Shown here: positions 42,655 to 52,093 of the stretch, piece by piece | How the letters are laid out: each line of letters starts with the position of its first letter | Numbering within the stretch: the stretch's first letter is position 1 | NCBI GenBank assembly: GCA_015709215.1 | Contig: JACCQN010000002.1 | Coordinates: forward strand, 62,001 to 126,000 | From: Bacteroidales bacterium | GTDB lineage: Bacteria > Bacteroidota > Bacteroidia > Bacteroidales > F082 | DNA length: 64,000 nucleotides | Direction: 5' to 3' | The notes under the pieces: model-generated | The model's input: only the letters and a program-made list of their open reading frames with translations | The model's database searches: none | Told to the model about the DNA's origin: nothing | Program-made: the position numbers and the translations under genes

Positions 42655-43437
42655 TCAAACATCAATTGACAGATAAAGGCGATGCAGTTTTATTCTTGCC
42701 TCAAAAGAGCTGAACTGCCACTTAATCTTCGTATTCTTATTGTTTATGTGATTTTGCCAAGCTCTGACTTCTGCTTTTACTGTATTTATTTTATCAATCC
42801 TTCTGTTAAAACATTGTTTAGTTAATATTTCCAGCTCTATTTCTGCTATGTTCAACCAGTTAACATGTTTAGGAGTAAAAATCTACTCCAAACGATCCCA
42901 AAACCTTTTTGCCTTTGTTGTTTTAAAAGTTTCATTTAATGCCGCAGCGCTGTGTGAAGCAGGATTATCCATTACCAAGGTTATGGTTTCTGCCTTGTGA
43001 TATAGCTTATCACAAATATACTGAACCATCAATGCCCAGTCTTTTTTTGTCCGTTGTTACGTTAGCTTCATCTTTTGTCCTTCGGCCAGAGGCTCGCTAC
43101 CACAAAAATATTACAAACCCCATTGCGTGAATATTCATAGCCGACTCTTTTCTCAAAGACTGGCTTCATCGGTATTGTTTTGCAAACTTCTTTTATTAAT
43201 TAATTGTTTCAGTGTTTCATCCATGCGAACTACCGGATTTACCTTTATTATAGGGTCGTTTGTAAACATCAAGCACCTGCTCCATAGCGGCAACAAAATG
43301 ACTGTTTTGCTCTTGTGGTATTACCCAACCTTTGACCCGCCAAGGATGACTTTTTTGGCTGTATGACTGCCCTTACGTGTGTTTTCCATCAATGATTCTC
43401 TTTCTTCTTTCGTTAAGATTACATTGTACTGTACCAT
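42655..43437 (-). pseudogene. Degenerate IS630-family transposase
   Basis: The minus strand shows pieces of one DDE transposase in different frames. It begins at 43437 with MVQYNVILTKEERESLMENT (helix-turn-helix N-terminus). After an internal deletion WVIPQEQNSHFVAAMEQVLD and VNPVVRMDETLKQLI follow, then YEYSRNGVCNIFV, LVMDNPASHSAAALNETF, and PKHVNWLNIAEIELEILTKQ with the closing DDE Glu. Frameshifts and a stop (TAG before FTPKHVNW) break the frame. Total length (~780 bp) is below the ~1 kb of an intact element. No clear terminal inverted repeats remain. Confidence 0.8.
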
Positions 43438-43537
43438 TAGCGTTTGGGGTATAGATATAAAAAATACATTACGTCATACTATTGTTGCCATGACACTAGT
43501 GATGAAAAGTGAACAAAACAATTCAGAAAACAAGTCT

Positions 43538-44272
43538 TTATTCGTTCATTCCCAACGCATTGTTTACCTCATCCCTGAAACTTCGTCCAAGCGGTAACTG
43601 TTTTTGGTTAATTTCAATTGTATTCCCAAAAACAGCATCAATATTCTTAACTGAAACAATATAGGATTTGTGCACTCTGATAAACCCTTTTTCTTTTAGA
43701 AAATTCTCCATGTTTTTCATCCGGTCGAGTTTAGTAAATTTTTTGTCTTTTGTATGGATGACCACGTATTCTTTCATACCTTCCACGTACAGGATATCGC
43801 TGATATTCACTTTCACCGACTTTTAGCCTGATTTGACAAAAATAAAATCGCGGGTGGTTGTTTCGTTTTCATCAGCTGGTGACAAGCCGATACTGATATT
43901 GCCGACTTGTTTTTCCAAACGTTTGGCCACTTTGTTCACGGCTTTAGCAAACCGGTCAAAAGAAATAGGCTTCAGCAGGTAGTCGGCTACATCCAGTTCG
44001 TAGCCTTCAAGGGCATACTCGGAATAAGCGGTGGTAAGAATAATCGCCGGTTTTTTTTGTAGGGTGCGGATAAATTCTATTCCGGTTAGTCCTGGCATTT
44101 GAATATCCAGAAAAACCAGTTCGACTGCTCCTGAACCGATGATTTCCCAGGCATTCTTTGCACTGCTAAAAACAGCCAGTAGTTCAAGTTGAGACATTTT
44201 TGCGATATAATCGCTCAAATACTGACGGGCAATGGGCTCATCATCCACCACAATACATTTAATCCTTTCCAT
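43538..44272 (-). pseudogene. LytTR-type response regulator interrupted by one in-frame TAA
   Basis: Codons 1-149 encode a receiver (CIVVDDEP, phospho-Asp in VFLDIQMPG, Thr in ILTTAYSEYA, Lys in LLKPISFDR). Codon 150 (43825-43823) is TAA. The same frame continues without shift into a complete LytTR DNA-binding domain (VNISDILYVEGMKEYVVIHT, IRVHKSYIVSVKNID, LPLGRSFRDEV) ending at 43538. The junction reads VKSG*KSVKVNISD, where relatives I recall have Tyr before K-[ST]-V-K, so TAT/TAC to TAA is the simplest origin. The start overlaps the kinase stop by one base (TAATG). Could be a pseudogene, a sequencing error, or read-through. Confidence 0.85.
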
Positions 44273-45372
44273 TACAACTCCTCTTTTTTTAAAAAAACCG
44301 GAAACCGGAGCGATACCATGTACTCGTCTTCCTGTTTCACAATTTTGAGCTCATAATTTTCCCCGAAAATCAGGTCCAACCGCTTTCTTACATTTGTCAG
44401 TCCAAGCCCTGTTCCATTCATTTGCCCTTGTTTTTTATCTTCACGGCAACTGTTTTTACAAACAAAAAAGAAACGTCCCTTGTCATCCCAGATATCCAGT
44501 TCGATCCACCCTTCATCTTCCCGGCCGATGGTACCGTGTTTAAAACAGTTTTCTACAAAAGGAAGCAACAACAAGGGTGGGATAAAACCAGTTTGGCTGG
44601 CCATGTTAACCGAAAGGTGGATATTTTCAGGGTGTGAGATGCGCTTTTTTTCGAGGTCGATATAATTACAGATAAAATCCAGTTCTTTTTCCACTGGCAC
44701 TAACTTTTGCTCGGTCTCATAAATCAGGTAGCGCATCGTGTCCGAGAGCCCCAGTACCATTTGTGGGGCCAGGTCGGATTTAGAATAGGCCAGGCCGTAC
44801 AGGTTGTTCAAGGTATTGAAAAGGAAATGCGGGTTGACTTGCGATTTCAGGTACAGGATTTGAGCTTCCTGGCTGCGTTGCAGCTTTTCACGGCTTTCCT
44901 GTTCTTTCTTCGCCTTATGTTAATACATTCTAAACAAGGTGGCGACAAGCAGGATAACCACGTTCATAATAAATCCGGGCAAATAGGCAGCTCTGCCTGG
45001 TTTTAAACGGTTTAGCAATTCAGGATTATACCCCGGGTTCAAATCCCTTTTCGATTCTAAAAATTCTCTTGGAAACCGGCCGGTAAAGCCGGGTACAGAT
45101 TCAGGAAACAAGCCCAGTAATTTGACCCGTATTATGGAAAACACAATACACAACAAAATGGAAGACAGCATGAACAATACATACTTTTTACGTTTGATCA
45201 AAAAATGGGAGGCCAGCACCCACCCCGAAATATAGAAAATACCGGCAATCAGTGCAATTCCGGCAATCGCCCTGGTTAATGCCATTGTCCAGGGCAAAAA
45301 CAATGCGAAGGGAATATACAGGAAATAAGTAAGGACTAACCAAACGCTGATATGTATAAGCATTTTCTTCAT
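44272..45372 (-). pseudogene. LytS/YehU-type sensor histidine kinase interrupted by one in-frame TAA
   Basis: Codons 1-150 give about four transmembrane segments (VWLVLTYFLYIPFALFL, IAGIALIAGIFYISGWVLA, YVLFMLSSILLCIVFSI, FIMNVVILLVATLFRMY). Codon 151 (44922-44920) is TAA. The same frame runs on through a coiled coil (KKEQESREKLQRSQEAQI) to SQVNPHFLFNTLNNL with the phospho-His, then N-box FVENCFKHG and G-box GTGLGLTNVRKRL. A product stopping at the TAA would be membrane-only; any restart at the TTG at 44811 would lack the His. Upstream partner of the LytTR regulator, which has the same kind of lesion. Confidence 0.85.
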
Positions 45373-45411
45373 ACTGCAATATTACAATTATTAGGCAATT
45401 CAGGATAAATC

Positions 45412-45443
45412 ACTTAAACCAACGTCATTTAAACTTAAACCAA
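45412..45443 (-). promoter_or_regulatory. Tandem direct repeat upstream of the LytS-like kinase (candidate LytTR site)
   Basis: ACTTAAACCAA occurs at 45412-45422 and again at 45433-45443, exactly 21 bp apart (two DNA turns). On the kinase strand the unit is TTGGTTTAAGT. LytTR regulators bind paired direct repeats with a GTT core and about this spacing. It lies 40-71 bp before the kinase start and within the shared gap with the divergent secreted-protein gene. Autoregulation is an inference. Confidence 0.5.
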
Positions 45444-45470
45444 TGGCTAAAATGTTCAACGAGCTGCTTG

Positions 45471-45525
45471 TTGAGTTGTCAGGTTATTGGTATAAAAGAA
45501 TGTGCCGTTTGACGAAAAAGTTTTC
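45471..45525 (+). promoter_or_regulatory. Shared upstream element, copy A
   Basis: 55 bp that aligns without gaps to 50307-50361 (about 40 of 55 identical), and in its inner 34 bases to 48147-48180 (27 identical). The best-kept part is ATTGGTATAA and TGCCGTTTGACGAAAA. It lies 53-107 bp before the secreted-protein gene at 45578. The GTTTG core could be part of a -7 element or a regulator half-site. Confidence 0.55.
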
Positions 45526-45577
45526 ATTTACCTGATAGGGAGACGTAAGTTTGAACCAAATTTTAAAGTGAAATATT

Positions 45578-45991
45578 ATGAAAATAAAAAACATTTTTAT
45601 TGGAACAGCAGCATTGCTTGTAATAATTACGTTCAGCAGTTTTGCGCAGGACAGGCAAGATGGCTTTCGTGAGCTGTTCAGGAAAAGCCCGGAAACCCGT
45701 GCACAAGTGGTTACTATGATCATGAAAAACAGATTGGACATGGATGAAGCTCAGGCTGAAAAATCCTTACAGATTAATCTGAAATACGCTAAGTTGAGCC
45801 AGCCCTATCTGAAAGTGGATGGCGGGGCAATGGAAAATACCGCTGAGCTGGTGACGCTCAACCAAAAGCGAAGCATTGAACTAAAAGCCATCCTCACACC
45901 AGAGCAAATCAAAAAAACGGAAGATATCCGTGCAAAGTGGATTAATCGGCTGGAAACCATTCTGGCCCATTTAAAAGAAAACAATTTTTAA
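45578..45991 (+). CDS. Secreted Spy/LTXXQ-like protein
   Basis: 137 residues with a cleavable Sec signal (IFIGTAALLVIITFSSFAQ). The mature part is helical and charged, with the pattern RAQVVTMIMKNRLDMDEAQAEK, NLKYAKLSQPY and LKAILTPEQIKKTEDI; the LTPEQ segment recalls the LTXXQ motif of Spy/CpxP periplasmic chaperones. It shares spacing of these blocks with the protein at 49826. Likely periplasmic. It is divergent from the LytS/LytTR operon and 31 bp before a lipoprotein gene, so the two may be co-transcribed. Function inferred from weak similarity only. Confidence 0.65.
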   Translation: MKIKNIFIGTAALLVIITFSSFAQDRQDGFRELFRKSPETRAQVVTMIMKNRLDMDEAQAEKSLQINLKYAKLSQPYLKVDGGAMENTAELVTLNQKRSIELKAILTPEQIKKTEDIRAKWINRLETILAHLKENNF

Positions 45992-46022
45992 TAATCATTT
46001 AGTTAACTTAAATTTTTAAAAA

Positions 46023-46817
46023 ATGAAAACTAGAAATCTTTTATTAACAGCTATTATTATCCTTTCGGGGATGTTAATTTTTACTTCCTGTAACAAGGAT
46101 GACGAACCGGTAGTGGGTGATTTACCGGCTAGCGAAACGGAAGCGGCCGAAATGGTGGCCTCTTCACTGGCCAACGGCACCTCAGGCACCGCATCGGATA
46201 TTGAAACTGCCGCTGCGCTTGCCAATGAGGCGGTTGGTTATGAAAGTAACCTGAAATATGCCATCACAAATGACAAAAGTTTAAGTTGTGGCGAATCGGC
46301 GGATACGACAATAGTTACTGTCGAAACCGGTGTAATTATCTATAATAACACTAAAACCTACAATTACACATTGGAGTGCGACGAGTTGGGAAACCCCTTG
46401 AAGTTGGATGTAGGCTTTAGCTACAACGGTGAATTCGATGCCCCCCGCCTGGCTTCTACTCATTCGGTGAGCGGTAATTTTGAAATCACTCAAATCGAAT
46501 ATACTTCCGATATGTACCTGATAAACGGTACGTGGCAACGAAGTGGCGGGTTCGAGTCTAAAATTGGAAACAAGGCAAACCGTCAGGTCACAATTCAATT
46601 TGAACTTATTGATATAGCCGTTGAAAAAGAACCTAAGGAAATCGACAACGGAACCATTCATTTTACTATTGAAGGCAGTAGTAGTCACGGTTCGTTCAGC
46701 TACGACGGAACCATTACATTTACCGGCAACAGGGTAGCAATCATCGAAATTTCCGGAAACCGTTATGTTACCAATCTGGAAACAGGAGATGTGGAAGAAG
46801 AAGGGGCTCAAAGGTAA
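46023..46817 (+). CDS. Hypothetical lipoprotein, paralog 1
   Basis: 264 residues. The lipobox is LIFTSCNKDDEP with Cys near 21. A Glu/Ala-rich segment (SETEAAEMVASSLANGTSGT) is followed by a predicted all-beta region (TTIVTVETGVIIYNNTKTYNY, SYNGEFDAPRLASTHSVSGNFE) ending in repeated beta-strand pairs rich in Gly, Ser and Asn. I recognise no domain. A second copy lies at 48265-49047; a 284-bp stretch (46245-46528) is identical base for base between the two, whereas the flanks differ. A strong terminator follows. Confidence 0.7.
   Translation: MKTRNLLLTAIIILSGMLIFTSCNKDDEPVVGDLPASETEAAEMVASSLANGTSGTASDIETAAALANEAVGYESNLKYAITNDKSLSCGESADTTIVTVETGVIIYNNTKTYNYTLECDELGNPLKLDVGFSYNGEFDAPRLASTHSVSGNFEITQIEYTSDMYLINGTWQRSGGFESKIGNKANRQVTIQFELIDIAVEKEPKEIDNGTIHFTIEGSSSHGSFSYDGTITFTGNRVAIIEISGNRYVTNLETGDVEEEGAQR
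46245..46528 (+). repeat. 284-bp tract identical to 48487-48770
   Basis: Read base by base at a constant offset of 2242, the two tracts show no difference, including silent sites. The first mismatch on the left is 46244/48486, and on the right divergence resumes at 46529/48771 with many changes. This is the pattern of recent gene conversion inside older duplicates. Confidence 0.8.
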
Positions 46818-46875
46818 GAGTAACAGGAAAAGGTAGTTTTTGTTTATAGGTAGTCCTTTATAGATTACACATCTC

Positions 46876-46908
46876 ACATGCTGGTGATAATTCACCGGCA
46901 TGTTTTTT
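46876..46908 (+). terminator. Rho-independent terminator after lipoprotein paralog 1
   Basis: ACATGCTGGTGA-TAAT-TCACCGGCATGT forms a 12-bp stem with one T-G pair and a 4-base loop, followed by six T. An ATG at 46900 lies within it and is therefore not the serine hydrolase start. Confidence 0.85.
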
Positions 46909-46926
46909 GCTTTAAAATGGTTTTAC

Positions 46927-48021
46927 ATGAAAAGAATAAAATATTATCGTATGAAATATATGAGCATATTGTTATTTGCATTACTATTATTGACAAGTCA
47001 TAGTAAAGATGACAACCCGGTACCGACACATCCAGATTCTTCTATGTATTTTCCTGCAAATTCAGGCACAGAATGGGAAACAACATCTGCATCGGAATTA
47101 GGTTGGAATCAAAATGCAATTCAGCCTTTAAAAGATTTTCTTGTCCAGAAGAATACAAAATCATTTATGATTCTTGTAAACGGCAGAATTGTTCTGGAAG
47201 AATATTTTAACGGACACACGGCAAACACAGACTGGGAGTGGAACAGCGCAGGCAAAACTTTGGTAGCCACAACAACGGGAATTGCTCAGCAGGAAAGTTT
47301 ATTGAATATAAATAATAAAGCATCCGATTATTTGGGAACGGAATGGACGAATATGCCATTGGAAAAAGAAAATCGGATAACAGTAAGGCATTTACTGACC
47401 ATGACCTCTGGCATTAACGACACTAAACAATATGTGAAAAAATTTAATCTCACTTATGTTGCTGATGCCGGAACGAGGTGGGCTTATGGCAATGTTTTCC
47501 AAAAACTGACAGCCATAGTTGCCGAAGCAAGCAATAAAGATTTTAAAACGTACTTCAATGAGAAACTGAAAAACAAAATCGGCATGAATGGCTATTGGAA
47601 ATTTGGCATAATTTTCACCATATATCACAGCGATACAAGAAGCATGGCAAGATTTGGTCTTTTAGCTTTAAACAAAGGAAAATGGAAAAACGAACAATTG
47701 GTCAATGAGCCTTTTTTCACTGAAAGTATTAGTACATCACAAAACATAAATCCGTCTTATGGCTACCTGTGGTGGCTCAACGGAAAAACAAAGTTTATGA
47801 TGCCGGGCGAGCAAACCGTTTACGCTGGTTTTTTAGTTCCCAATGCACCAGCAGATATGTACGCAGCTATGGGTGCAAAAGACCAGCGGATTTATGTTAT
47901 ACCAAGCAAAAAAATGGTCATCGTAAGAATGGGAAATGCCTCTGACCCAAACAACCCCAATTTTGTTGTTTCAGGATTTGACAATGAACTTTGGGCAAAA
48001 ATCAATGCGGTGATAAACTAA
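46927..48021 (+). CDS. Serine hydrolase, beta-lactamase class C family
   Basis: 364 residues from the ATG at 46927 (another ATG at 46951 is possible). Active-site SxxK is SAGK near residue 108, YxN is YGN near 190, and the third motif region is AAMGAKDQRIYVIPSKKMV, as in 6-aminohexanoate-dimer-hydrolase/esterase relatives. A hydrophobic N-terminus ends LLLLTSHSKDDNP, where a lipobox Cys would be expected but His (CAT) stands, so lipidation should fail. Substrate (peptide, ester or beta-lactam) cannot be told. It sits between the duplicated lipoproteins, following a terminator, with AT-richer codons than they have. Confidence 0.85.
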   Translation: MKRIKYYRMKYMSILLFALLLLTSHSKDDNPVPTHPDSSMYFPANSGTEWETTSASELGWNQNAIQPLKDFLVQKNTKSFMILVNGRIVLEEYFNGHTANTDWEWNSAGKTLVATTTGIAQQESLLNINNKASDYLGTEWTNMPLEKENRITVRHLLTMTSGINDTKQYVKKFNLTYVADAGTRWAYGNVFQKLTAIVAEASNKDFKTYFNEKLKNKIGMNGYWKFGIIFTIYHSDTRSMARFGLLALNKGKWKNEQLVNEPFFTESISTSQNINPSYGYLWWLNGKTKFMMPGEQTVYAGFLVPNAPADMYAAMGAKDQRIYVIPSKKMVIVRMGNASDPNNPNFVVSGFDNELWAKINAVIN

Positions 48022-48131
48022 AAAATACGAACAGCCAACAAGGATCTGGTGTCAGGCGGGCTGATGTTCTAAACGATGACGAATCAATATCTTTTCTTCA
48101 AAAATAATTATACAATGAAATCAGTAGTTTG

Positions 48132-48180
48132 TTGATAGAATAAACCATTGATATAAGTAAATCTGCCGTTTGATGAAAAG
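48132..48180 (+). promoter_or_regulatory. Shared upstream element, copy B
   Basis: The segment aligns without gaps to copy A: TTGA at the left end and ATTGATATAAG plus TGCCGTTTGATGAAAA on the right, 27 of 34 inner bases identical. It lies 85-133 bp before lipoprotein paralog 2. The rest of the 48022-48264 gap shows no gene. Confidence 0.55.
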
Positions 48181-48264
48181 ATTCCTGCCAACCGGGGTTC
48201 ATTGTTTAAGTTTGCACTATCATTAATTCAGGAACAAAAATTATCTAATTAAAAATTTTAAAAA

Positions 48265-49047
48265 ATGAAAATAAGAAATCTTTTATTAACAACTATCATT
48301 ACCTTTTCAGGAATGTTAATTTTTACTTCCTGTAACAAGGATGACGAACCGGTAGCCGACGACTTATCGGCTACTAAGACAGAAGCGGCCGAAATGGTGG
48401 CCTTCTCACTGGCCAACGGCACCTCAGGCACCGCATCGGATATTGAAACTGCCGCCGCGCTTGCCAATGAGGCGGTTGGTTATGATAGTAACCTGAAATA
48501 TGCCATCACAAATGACAAAAGTTTAAGTTGTGGCGAATCGGCGGATACGACAATAGTTACTGTCGAAACCGGTGTAATTATCTATAATAACACTAAAACC
48601 TACAATTACACATTGGAGTGCGACGAGTTGGGAAACCCCTTGAAGTTGGATGTAGGCTTTAGCTACAACGGTGAATTCGATGCCCCCCGCCTGGCTTCTA
48701 CTCATTCGGTGAGCGGTAATTTTGAAATCACTCAAATCGAATATACTTCCGATATGTACCTGATAAACGGCTCATGGCAGCGAAGCGGCGGTTTCGAATC
48801 TAAAATTCGTAATCAGATAAACCGCCAGGCCACGATTCAATTTGAATTTGTTGATGTTGCTGTTGAAAAAGAACCTAAGGAAATCGACAACGGAACCATT
48901 CATTTCTCAATATCAGGCAGTAGTAGTCACGGTTCGTTCAGCTACGCTGGAACTATTACGTTTACCGGCAACCGGGAAGCTACCATTGAAATCTCAGGGT
49001 CCCGTTATGTTACTAATCTGGAAACAGGTGAGGTGGAAGAGCAATAA
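48265..49047 (+). CDS. Hypothetical lipoprotein, paralog 2
   Basis: 260 residues, the second member of the duplicated pair. It has the same lipobox (LIFTSCNKDDEP) and the same beta-rich body. It differs mostly in the first 40 mature residues, around RNQINRQATIQFEFVDVAVE, and at the C-terminus (GEVEEQ instead of GDVEEEGAQR). Its upstream region carries the shared element copy B, while paralog 1 follows the Spy-like gene that has copy A, so both would respond to the same signal. A terminator follows. Function unknown. Confidence 0.7.
   Translation: MKIRNLLLTTIITFSGMLIFTSCNKDDEPVADDLSATKTEAAEMVAFSLANGTSGTASDIETAAALANEAVGYDSNLKYAITNDKSLSCGESADTTIVTVETGVIIYNNTKTYNYTLECDELGNPLKLDVGFSYNGEFDAPRLASTHSVSGNFEITQIEYTSDMYLINGSWQRSGGFESKIRNQINRQATIQFEFVDVAVEKEPKEIDNGTIHFSISGSSSHGSFSYAGTITFTGNREATIEISGSRYVTNLETGEVEEQ
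48487..48770 (+). repeat. 284-bp tract identical to 46245-46528
   Basis: The second copy of the zero-mismatch tract described at 46245. It encodes the central beta region of lipoprotein paralog 2. Confidence 0.8.
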
Positions 49048-49461
49048 ACTTCTTCGAATGTTTTTAATACAAATACCTGTCTTTTAGTAAATTGAAAGAT
49101 GAGGTTGTTAAATTGAAACCAGATAAAGTTTAAAAAGAAACCATGCCGGCAGAAAGAATGATAACGGCATGGTTTTTATAGTTCCGAAAAATATATGAAT
49201 AATGAAGAAAAGACTAATTATATTTTTATTATTGATGATTCCACTTTTCTGGTTTTTGAGGCTAAATTATTTGTTCAACGAAACTGTGGTATAATGGCTT
49301 TTGATAATCTAAGAAGAGATAATTAGTTCTTTCCTTCCCCTCATGGCAGATTTTGAAAATCGGTTGAGTGAAAAGATAATTACGGATGCCCTGAAGGCAA
49401 AATCTCTTGGGATGCCATTGATATGATTAACATTTAGCTTGACTATACAGATGATGCATGT
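49048..49461. other. 414-bp gap: terminator, tiny hydrophobic frame, decayed DNA
   Basis: After the terminator at 49138-49177, a 30-codon frame (49202-49294, MKKRLIIFLLLMIPLFWFL then a stop) looks like a signal anchor without a mature protein. A 27-codon frame (MADFENRLSEKIITDALKA) begins near 49343. Neither resembles a known family. Probably the ruined 5' part of the T9SS-type gene whose end survives at 49462. Confidence 0.35.
49138..49177 (+). terminator. Rho-independent terminator after lipoprotein paralog 2
   Basis: AAACCATGCCG and CGGCATGGTTT pair over 11 bp around a 16-base loop, with T-run at 49173-49177. Confidence 0.8.
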
Positions 49462-49803
49462 ATGGATATTTTAACAAATTGCCGGAAAGAAAGGATGTTT
49501 ACTGTTCCGGAAAATAGTCCCCGAAAAAAAGAATTGGTTGAACATCCCGGCAAATCTGTTTCAACAGCTGAGATGAAAACTAAAATAAAGGTATATGTGA
49601 ATCTGTTATCTAAAACCTTGTATGTCGAATTTCCTCGTCCTGCGGATAATGTATCAAATAGGATTTTCACTATTGACCAAAGGCAGTTAGTTGGTGAAGT
49701 CCAGTTGCATTCAACTAATAAAATGGTGGGTTTAAACCATTTGCCATCAGGCTTTTACATTATGGAATTTGCCGATGCCACCAGAAATTTCACTAAAAGA
49801 TAA
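49462..49803 (+). pseudogene. Orphan T9SS sorting-domain fragment
   Basis: The open frame of 113 codons has no signal peptide. Its last ~70 residues (KVYVNLLSKTLYVEFPRPAD, RIFTIDQRQLVGEVQL, LNHLPSGFYIMEFADATRNF) follow the plan of a type A Por-secretion C-terminal sorting domain. In relatives the first strand is VYPNP-[LV]S; here it reads VYVNLLS, so even that motif has decayed. An intact T9SS cargo is normally much larger and needs a Sec signal, so this is most likely the tail of a deleted gene. It ends 22 bp before the next secreted-protein gene. Confidence 0.55.
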
Positions 49804-49825
49804 AACTTAAATAAAAACAATAATT

Positions 49826-50239
49826 ATGAGAAAAATAATTTTTAACGTTATTTTCGTGTCCTTTTTCCCGCTTGCCGCCTTTGCTCAGAATTTTGGGATG
49901 CAGCTTACACCCGAAGAACGCGCCCAATTGCAAACGGAATGGATGAAAGAAAACCTGCAGTTAAGCGATTCGCAACAGGTAAAAGTTGAGGCGCTGAACC
50001 TGGAATATGCGCTGAAAATGGAAAAAATAAAGGGCATTGATGGCAATTTAAGCAAGCTGAAAAAAGCCAGAAAAACATCGGAAGAGAAAGACGAAAAGTT
50101 GAAAAAACTGTTGAGTGAAGAACAGTTTGCGTTTTACCTCGACAAACGGAAAGAACTGAGGAAAAAAACCAAGGAAATGGCCAAAGAGCAAAAACAGGAA
50201 GAACAGGGAATGTCTGACCAACCTGGCAAGTGTCCATAA
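49826..50239 (+). CDS. Secreted Spy/LTXXQ-like protein 2
   Basis: 137 residues, the same length as the protein at 45578. A Sec signal (IFVSFFPLAAFAQ) is followed by a charged helical body: RAQLQTEWMKENLQLSDSQQVKVEALNLEYALKM, then LKKLLSEEQFAFYLDKRKEL and a Lys/Glu-rich tail. Block order RAQ...MK..L.L...Q..K...NL.YA and LSEEQ matches the first copy, so they look like distant duplicates. Probably a periplasmic chaperone-like or metal/stress-responsive protein, which is an inference from weak similarity to Spy/CpxP. Confidence 0.65.
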   Translation: MRKIIFNVIFVSFFPLAAFAQNFGMQLTPEERAQLQTEWMKENLQLSDSQQVKVEALNLEYALKMEKIKGIDGNLSKLKKARKTSEEKDEKLKKLLSEEQFAFYLDKRKELRKKTKEMAKEQKQEEQGMSDQPGKCP

Positions 50240-50306
50240 AAATATTTTTGGTAAGCTTGTTTTAAATTTTTAAATCAGTAATCCGTTTAATCAAATATAC
50301 CGCTTA

Positions 50307-50361
50307 TTGAATTATCAGGTCATTCGTTTAAATGGATTTACTGTTCGATGAAAACTTTTCC
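50307..50361 (+). promoter_or_regulatory. Shared upstream element, copy C
   Basis: Ungapped alignment to copy A over 55 bases (about 40 identical), including TCAGGTCATT, GTTTAAATGG and GTTCGATGAAAA. It is 57-111 bp before the DUF6515-like gene, nearly the same distance as copy A from its gene. Confidence 0.55.
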
Positions 50362-50417
50362 ACATTCGGAAACTGAAGGTTATCTTTGGACTGGAATAAA
50401 CAAAAACATAAAAAATC

Positions 50418-50975
50418 ATGAAAGCAAAACATATTGTATTTATTTTAATCATTGTTTTTTTGGGTGTAGCTTCAAGTTCGTATGCACAACGAAGGGTGAT
50501 TAATACCCCCCGCCGGACGGTGGTGCAAGGGCCGCGCGGAACAGTTGTTTACAAGAAAAGGCCGGTGGTAAGGTCGGTCAGGCGTCTTCACCGAAATGCT
50601 GTTGTGATCCGGTATCGTAATGTCCCCTATCATTATTATGGTGGTGTGTTTTATGTGGCCCGCAACGGGGTTTATGTCCAAACTGCGCCGCCCGCTGGCA
50701 TCCGGATTGCGGCATTGCCTGCCGGATATATGCGGGTTGTTGTCGGGCCGAGCGTTTTCTTTTATGCCGGGGGAATATTTTACACGCTGGATGAAGCCAG
50801 CAAGGAATATGTCGTTGCTGACCCACCCGTGGGAGCGGTTGTAAACCAACTGCCATCCGATGCTGTCGAAATAGAAATCGACGGCAAACCTTTCATGGAA
50901 TACAACGATATCATTTACAAGCAGGTAGATATAGAAAAAACAGGTTACGAAGTGGTGGGGAAACTTGATTCTTAA
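50418..50975 (+). CDS. Secreted DUF6515-like protein
   Basis: 185 residues with a Sec signal (IIVFLGVASSSYAQ). An Arg-rich stretch (RRVINTPRRTVVQGPRGTVV, RSVRRLHRNAVV) is followed by tandem short beta units of the form YHYYGGVFYVARNGVYVQTAPP, GPSVFFYAGGIFYTLDEASK EYVVADPP and KPFMEYNDIIYKQV, characteristic of DUF6515-type envelope proteins. Their function is not known. Its promoter region has element copy C. Confidence 0.75.
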   Translation: MKAKHIVFILIIVFLGVASSSYAQRRVINTPRRTVVQGPRGTVVYKKRPVVRSVRRLHRNAVVIRYRNVPYHYYGGVFYVARNGVYVQTAPPAGIRIAALPAGYMRVVVGPSVFFYAGGIFYTLDEASKEYVVADPPVGAVVNQLPSDAVEIEIDGKPFMEYNDIIYKQVDIEKTGYEVVGKLDS

Positions 50976-51050
50976 AAGCAATTATTTTAAATATAGCATT
51001 TAACCCACATCACAGCTAGTAGGTTCATAACTGTCTGATATTAAGAAGAA

Positions 51051-51230
51051 TTATTTTAAAAATGTTGGAGGGAGACTACGTATTTTTTTCCGATGGAATG
51101 GAACTGTTTTATATCCCATCAGGTCATATACCTGTTTTACCTTTTGTGAGGGTTCAGTACATTGGCGGGCAGATACTGTTTCCCTTTTTGTGTTTTTTAC
51201 AATTGTAGTAAGGTGTTTTTGTGTATTCAT
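51051..51230 (-). CDS. 59-residue hypothetical protein or transposase remnant
   Basis: An ATG-to-TAA frame that begins MNTQKHLTTIVKNTKRETVS and contains KVKQVYDLMGYKTVPFHRKK. It is strongly basic and has no signal peptide. It may be a fragment of the decayed element around it, and I cannot name a family. Confidence 0.25.
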   Translation of the reverse strand: MNTQKHLTTIVKNTKRETVSARQCTEPSQKVKQVYDLMGYKTVPFHRKKIRSLPPTFLK

Positions 51231-51459
51231 AGTGCGTACAATCTTTTTCCAGGTGTGGTTATTCTTATTGCTTTAGATGATACTTAATGGTAGGCATAAG
51301 CCAGGATGCCTGTATTCCCTGGTGCTGTTGGGCTTTAGAGGTATCATCAGTTTTTTGGAATATGGAGCGTAAGTCCCAATCAATTTTAATATTCTGGAAG
51401 TATATTCAATCTCCATGATAGTATTGTAAATTGACTCTAATGTTTAAGCATCGGTTTTA

Positions 51460-51640
51460 TCCTTGCTTGACTTTTACTGCTAAAATATAGTCGATCTGCT
51501 GGTTGATTATTTTTTCCCATGATCTCTTGATCCGCAAATTATTGTACCGTCTGTGCTTATAACTTATGCATCGGTCATTTGGGACACTGAAGCTACCCAA
51601 TCAGGGAAGTACTTTTCTGATTCACTCGGGATATAAAGCG
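51460..51640 (-). pseudogene. ISAs1-type (H-repeat-like) transposase relic
   Basis: Minus-strand pieces read SEKYFPDWVASVSQMTDA, then a stop, then VISTDGTIICGSRD, and in a shifted frame KKIINQQIDYILAVKVKQG. Intact ISAs1 transposases I recall have a W-V-x-S-I...VIAIDGKTLRGS block and later IID-x-x-x-DYVLALKGNQ, so order and content agree while the middle is deleted. No terminal repeats found. Confidence 0.55.
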
Positions 51641-52093
51641 CTGAAAAATAGATTGAAGGTGCTGTGAAATGGGATACTTCACATAATCTTTTTATCCAGG
51701 GTGCTTTTGAAATGCTAAAGTCCTCTATGTCATTTCACGTTTCCACATTGCAAATCACGTGGCTATGGTGATAAAAATAATATCAGCAAGCAAATGCTCT
51801 TTTGATCAGTCAACTTCCGGATGGGGCAATTTTAAAAAATCATCAATTGGCGATTATATCTGTGTTTATTTGCAATATGATGGAATTTTTTAACACACTA
51901 ATACGTTTCTAACAGGATAGCTTTCAACTATGAGTTGATAGTTTAAAGGCGTTTGCGCTGAATTTAAACCTTTGGCAATTTGAATTTTAAAAACGCATCA
52001 CTACTTTTGATCAATAATAGAACCAGACCTTAAAACTAAACCGAAACATCCTACCTTTGCAAACTGATTTTTTGAAACTTAAAACGAAGCATC

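Follow-up and report, generated by a model that had tools for sequence, protein, structure and literature searches.

Probable recent pseudogenisation, one stop codon per gene, of a LytS/LytTR two-component pair on a segment very likely acquired by horizontal transfer

Bacterial sensor kinases and their response regulators are only useful to each other, in a sense that, once one partner is lost, the other has nothing left to do. What should be made, then, of an operon in which both partners carry a premature stop codon? In the window (i.e., the whole stretch of 64,000 nucleotides analysed here), a LytS-type kinase gene and a LytTR regulator gene are arranged in a layout typical of operons, with the start of the regulator at the end of the kinase (both at 44272), and a TAA interrupts the frame of each of them (Table 1). 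Has a whole pathway been lost and, if so, when? Are the stops errors of the consensus sequence? Are they read through, or do they separate modules that are used on their own? The initial annotation, made from the sequence alone, had raised these possibilities and regarded recent pseudogenisation as the simplest one. Its basic description is borne out by the minus-strand translation, with exactly one in-frame TAA per gene, the one of the kinase separating the membrane part from the His-box and that of the regulator lying at the border of the receiver and LytTR domains. The domains are also recognisable around the stops, since the pieces match the profiles of the receiver (PF00072, E 3.5e-21), LytTR (PF04397, 8e-19) and His_kinase (PF06580, 1e-23), the latter confined to the C-terminal piece of the kinase, downstream of its TAA, while the profile search matched no Pfam family to the sensor part. 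A LytTR-type regulator has a receiver followed by a LytTR domain in one protein, and here both domains are present but split by the TAA; likewise, the membrane sensor, the His_kinase domain and the ATPase that a LytS-type kinase has in one frame are interrupted. Both genes are homologous to intact genes and contain a premature stop, which (like a frameshift) is the mark of a pseudogene.

Table 1. Features of the kinase-regulator operon and its surroundings (positions of the window).
Feature	Position	Strand	Remarks
LytS-type sensor histidine kinase gene	44272..45372	minus	366 codons, disabled by one TAA
LytTR response-regulator gene	43538..44272	minus	244 codons, disabled by one TAA
In-frame TAA, kinase codon 151	44920..44922	minus	between membrane part and His_kinase domain
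In-frame TAA, regulator codon 150	43823..43825	minus	border of receiver and LytTR domain
Possible re-initiation ORF, GTG start	43538..43816	minus	LytTR-only, 92 aa, putative product
Segment common to the window and Anaerophaga thermohalophila	43507..50969	.	~7.5 kb, five blocks of 83-90% DNA identity, window-only inserts, one duplicated gene
Degraded IS630 transposase gene	42655..43450	minus	several stops and frame changes; PF13358; NF033545 below curated cut-off
Divergent small-protein gene, intact	45578..45991	plus	137 aa, signal-peptide-like start
Lipoprotein-like gene, intact	46023..46817	plus	264 aa; second copy at 48265-49047, 91% identical

The closest relative found is the operon of Anaerophaga thermohalophila DSM 12881, from the Marinilabiliaceae (NZ_AEWI01000007.1, L072:5986-7835), in which both genes are intact, continuous and collinear with those of the window, with 89% DNA identity and a protein identity of 90% for the kinase and 93% for the regulator, the latter uniting receiver and LytTR domain in one protein there. 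The alignment to it has zero gaps over 366 + 244 codons, which confirms that no frameshift is involved, as had been stated in the initial annotation. The latter had also proposed to determine which residue relatives have at each stop, and Anaerophaga has sense codons at both, Glu in the kinase and Tyr in the regulator. Each TAA is one substitution away from the Anaerophaga codon in the codon alignment, and both stops are therefore single-base nonsense substitutions, which most simply occurred on the window side. Searches of 61 relatives with each read-through protein yielded many more distant homologues, with at most 38% identity for the kinase and 49% for the regulator, and essentially all of these homologues are open at the stop sites; a few stops were flagged in lower-scoring kinase relatives, mostly in matches reaching the C-terminal end, and were not inspected singly. 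In the alignment of about 43 relatives, the stop sites correspond to variable linker columns, in which the common residues are Glu and Lys for the kinase and Tyr and Thr for the regulator (Tyr being the commonest), and none of the aligned relatives is split at either site.

How long have the genes been disabled? The dN/dS ratios of the gene halves, also proposed in the initial annotation and calculated here (NG86) between the window copy and that of Anaerophaga, are low before as well as after each stop. For the kinase, the ratio is 0.142 overall, with 0.349 before the stop (the membrane part) and 0.082 after it, and for the regulator it is 0.070 overall, with 0.082 before and 0.054 after, the intact neighbour genes showing values of 0.16-0.21. 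Furthermore, in a test for relaxed selection, the window copy had not changed in excess at conserved sites: where the two copies differ, it departs from the family-common residue at 8 positions in the kinase (vs. 6 in Anaerophaga) and at 3 in the regulator (vs. 3), and an old pseudogenisation was rejected for this reason. Low ratios on both sides together with the absence of such an excess indicate that the genes were working until very recently. As a rough bound, reasoned from dN/dS with no fitted model, the ratio of the regulator would exceed the observed 0.07 if a neutral phase had taken up more than some 14% of the window branch. Even a short neutral period would be enough for two stops to appear, since 4-5% of the random single substitutions in these genes are nonsense.

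Beyond what the initial annotation contained, the operon very likely sits on a horizontally acquired segment. At the DNA level, the 145 kb window contig and the 131 kb contig of Anaerophaga resemble each other nowhere but in the shared segment, and the identity of its blocks is far above that of the core genes, given that RecA and RpoC are about 74-79% identical at the DNA level (with one short RecA-side piece at 81%) and PurH shows 62% protein identity. In addition, no close copy turned up among the genomes searched, which were 6 from the same genus, 173 from the family and 393 from the order. This high similarity, combined with the absence from close relatives, points very likely to a transfer, which may have been to this genome or to both from a common source. 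The G+C content does not discriminate in this respect (0.40 vs. 0.41). As for a possible vehicle, a search of viral contigs with the regulator yielded only a relative with 26% identity, the plasmid matches were all short and to other LytTR regulators, and no mobile element carrying the segment was identified in these searches. The IS630 remnant, the only copy found in the genome, adjoins the operon-side edge of the segment.

The neighbours that the window shares with Anaerophaga remain intact, and the divergent small-protein gene is a possible target of the regulator. Other parts of the region differ between both genomes. A serine beta-lactamase-family gene (46900-48021) lies between the two lipoprotein-like copies (46023-46817 and 48265-49047) in the window, whereas Anaerophaga has one such copy and no beta-lactamase-family gene there. 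About 0.6 kb (49185-49800) is also missing in Anaerophaga, and its ORF weakly matches the PF18962 sorting domain (secretion-system C-terminal), below the cut-off. Between the segment and a YchF-family GTPase gene, a stretch with no ORF of at least 80 aa (50981-52093) possibly represents gene remnants. Anaerophaga, in turn, carries many copies of a dispersed ~95 bp repeat in 131 kb, in some cases in tandem pairs (L072:5616-5805 and a dozen or more further sites, L086-L092), and 578 kb of the window genome contained none. One pair of this repeat has inserted itself upstream of the counterpart of the gene at 45578; the ~165 bp that seem to be missing upstream of 45578 correspond to this insertion, and their interpretation as lost regulatory DNA was rejected.

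Taking this together, the locus is quite probably the product of a recent, and probably sequential, pseudogenisation of a horizontally acquired accessory two-component pair, so that the simplest view of the initial annotation turns out to be the best-supported one, given the low dN/dS on both sides, the conserved sites without excess changes and the intact close relative. The operon would have arrived on the segment of ~7.5 kb by horizontal transfer, and purifying selection would have acted on the pair through most of the period after the window and Anaerophaga copies parted. Very recently, a nonsense substitution would have hit one gene, whichever came first, and the loss of this partner would have freed the other from selection, allowing the second substitution. 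As neither partner is of use once the other is gone, two independent nonsense changes in adjacent genes find an explanation. What remains is an ATPase-bearing kinase fragment with no start that would keep the histidine and a receiver cut from its DNA-binding domain, from which we infer that signalling by the pair is lost in the cell. Two nonsense changes without any indel are not the most typical pattern of a pseudogene, which speaks against this reading, although with only two events such a pattern is not improbable. In these terms, the case is an ordinary loss of an acquired signalling pair, with no new genetic mechanism.

Could the genes nevertheless be intact in the organism, one or both TAA being wrong base calls or coming from a minority strain? 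The fully constrained look of the genes, with no sign of long relaxation, and an assembly in 106 contigs would agree with it. However, a survey based on codon usage over 578 kb of the same genome, with a sensitivity of about 84% on simulated nonsense mutations, found no further nonsense-split genes: it caught the regulator stop (the kinase stop, known by homology, fell below the filter due to the poor score of the membrane half), and the 17 remaining same-frame ORF pairs were ordinary adjacent genes when read by eye. Such a clean survey places the pair of stops beyond chance, and two nonsense errors within 1.1 kb would need a local cause, which makes a consensus or assembly error unlikely. The same data bear on stop read-through or codon reassignment, by which full-length proteins would be produced. 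The two stops are the same codon, TAA, with an open frame on each side, as would be expected under read-through, which the initial annotation had proposed; nonetheless, TAA also serves as the usual terminator, more often than any other stop codon (154 of 252 long ORFs), a tRNA family search found 36 tRNA genes and none with a TTA anticodon, and the residues of Anaerophaga at the two sites are different ones. The clean survey, the normal use of TAA and the tRNA set thus give support neither to recoding, which is extremely improbable, nor to widespread base-call error.

The remaining alternatives grant the stops a function. A GTG stands two sense codons past the regulator stop, and the ORF that it opens spans positions 5-97 of the 98 of the LytTR profile, that is, nearly the whole domain, so production of the LytTR part would still be possible, which is the other point against a complete loss. 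It would be a free, unphosphorylated DNA-binding protein outside the control of the receiver, and two point mutations would have replaced regulation under the control of a signal by constitutive regulation of the retained neighbours. The dN/dS of 0.054 downstream of the stop is in line with this partly functional split, but it mostly predates the stop. Moreover, the GTG is an old codon for Val, already present in the intact Anaerophaga gene, and therefore gives no sign of having evolved as a start, no aligned relative is split there, and the kinase offers nothing comparable: past its stop, no ATG, GTG or TTG occurs before a TTG at 44811, downstream of the phospho-accepting histidine, so that the kinase core could not be started with this residue retained and is predicted to lack a usable start. 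All in all, re-initiation deserves very little credence. Even less can be given to a phase-variable or programmed separation of modules, which the initial annotation had suggested and for which the location of each stop between domains could be invoked. Both changes are single substitutions that leave the length unchanged with respect to Anaerophaga, no simple repeat was seen by eye in their flanks, the kinase core would again be left without a start, and the position in the linkers fits the tolerance of variable columns.

If recent pseudogenisation is the true course of events, the locus cleanly captures an acquired signalling pair at the very beginning of its loss, with one base changed per partner and the rest of the sequence, as well as the presumed target genes, still intact. 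It would also be a datable case of linked partner-gene loss, although not one that teaches a new mechanism. Compared with known systems, the pair shares with LytS/LytR (BtsS/BtsR-like) systems the domain order, the adjacent kinase-regulator genes, the membrane N-terminus and the conserved His box and receiver, and differs from them in the nonsense codon of both genes and in a sensor part without a Pfam match; even the intact Anaerophaga regulator scores far under the NCBIfam cut-offs for BtsR and LytR. The Anaerophaga locus is the same operon with the same neighbours, but it has no stop codons and carries the repeat element upstream of the divergent gene that is absent in the window. Regarding the fate of acquired genes in general, transferred genes are enriched among prokaryotic pseudogenes, whose likelihood of belonging to the transferred type is about 2.3 times that of genes (Liu et al. 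2004, PMC522871). The failed-transfer pseudogenes of that study resemble the present pair in being acquired genes with premature stops that are absent from close relatives. Unlike them, the pair was constrained for long after the two copies parted, which suggests the late loss of a once-used pair and not an immediate failure.
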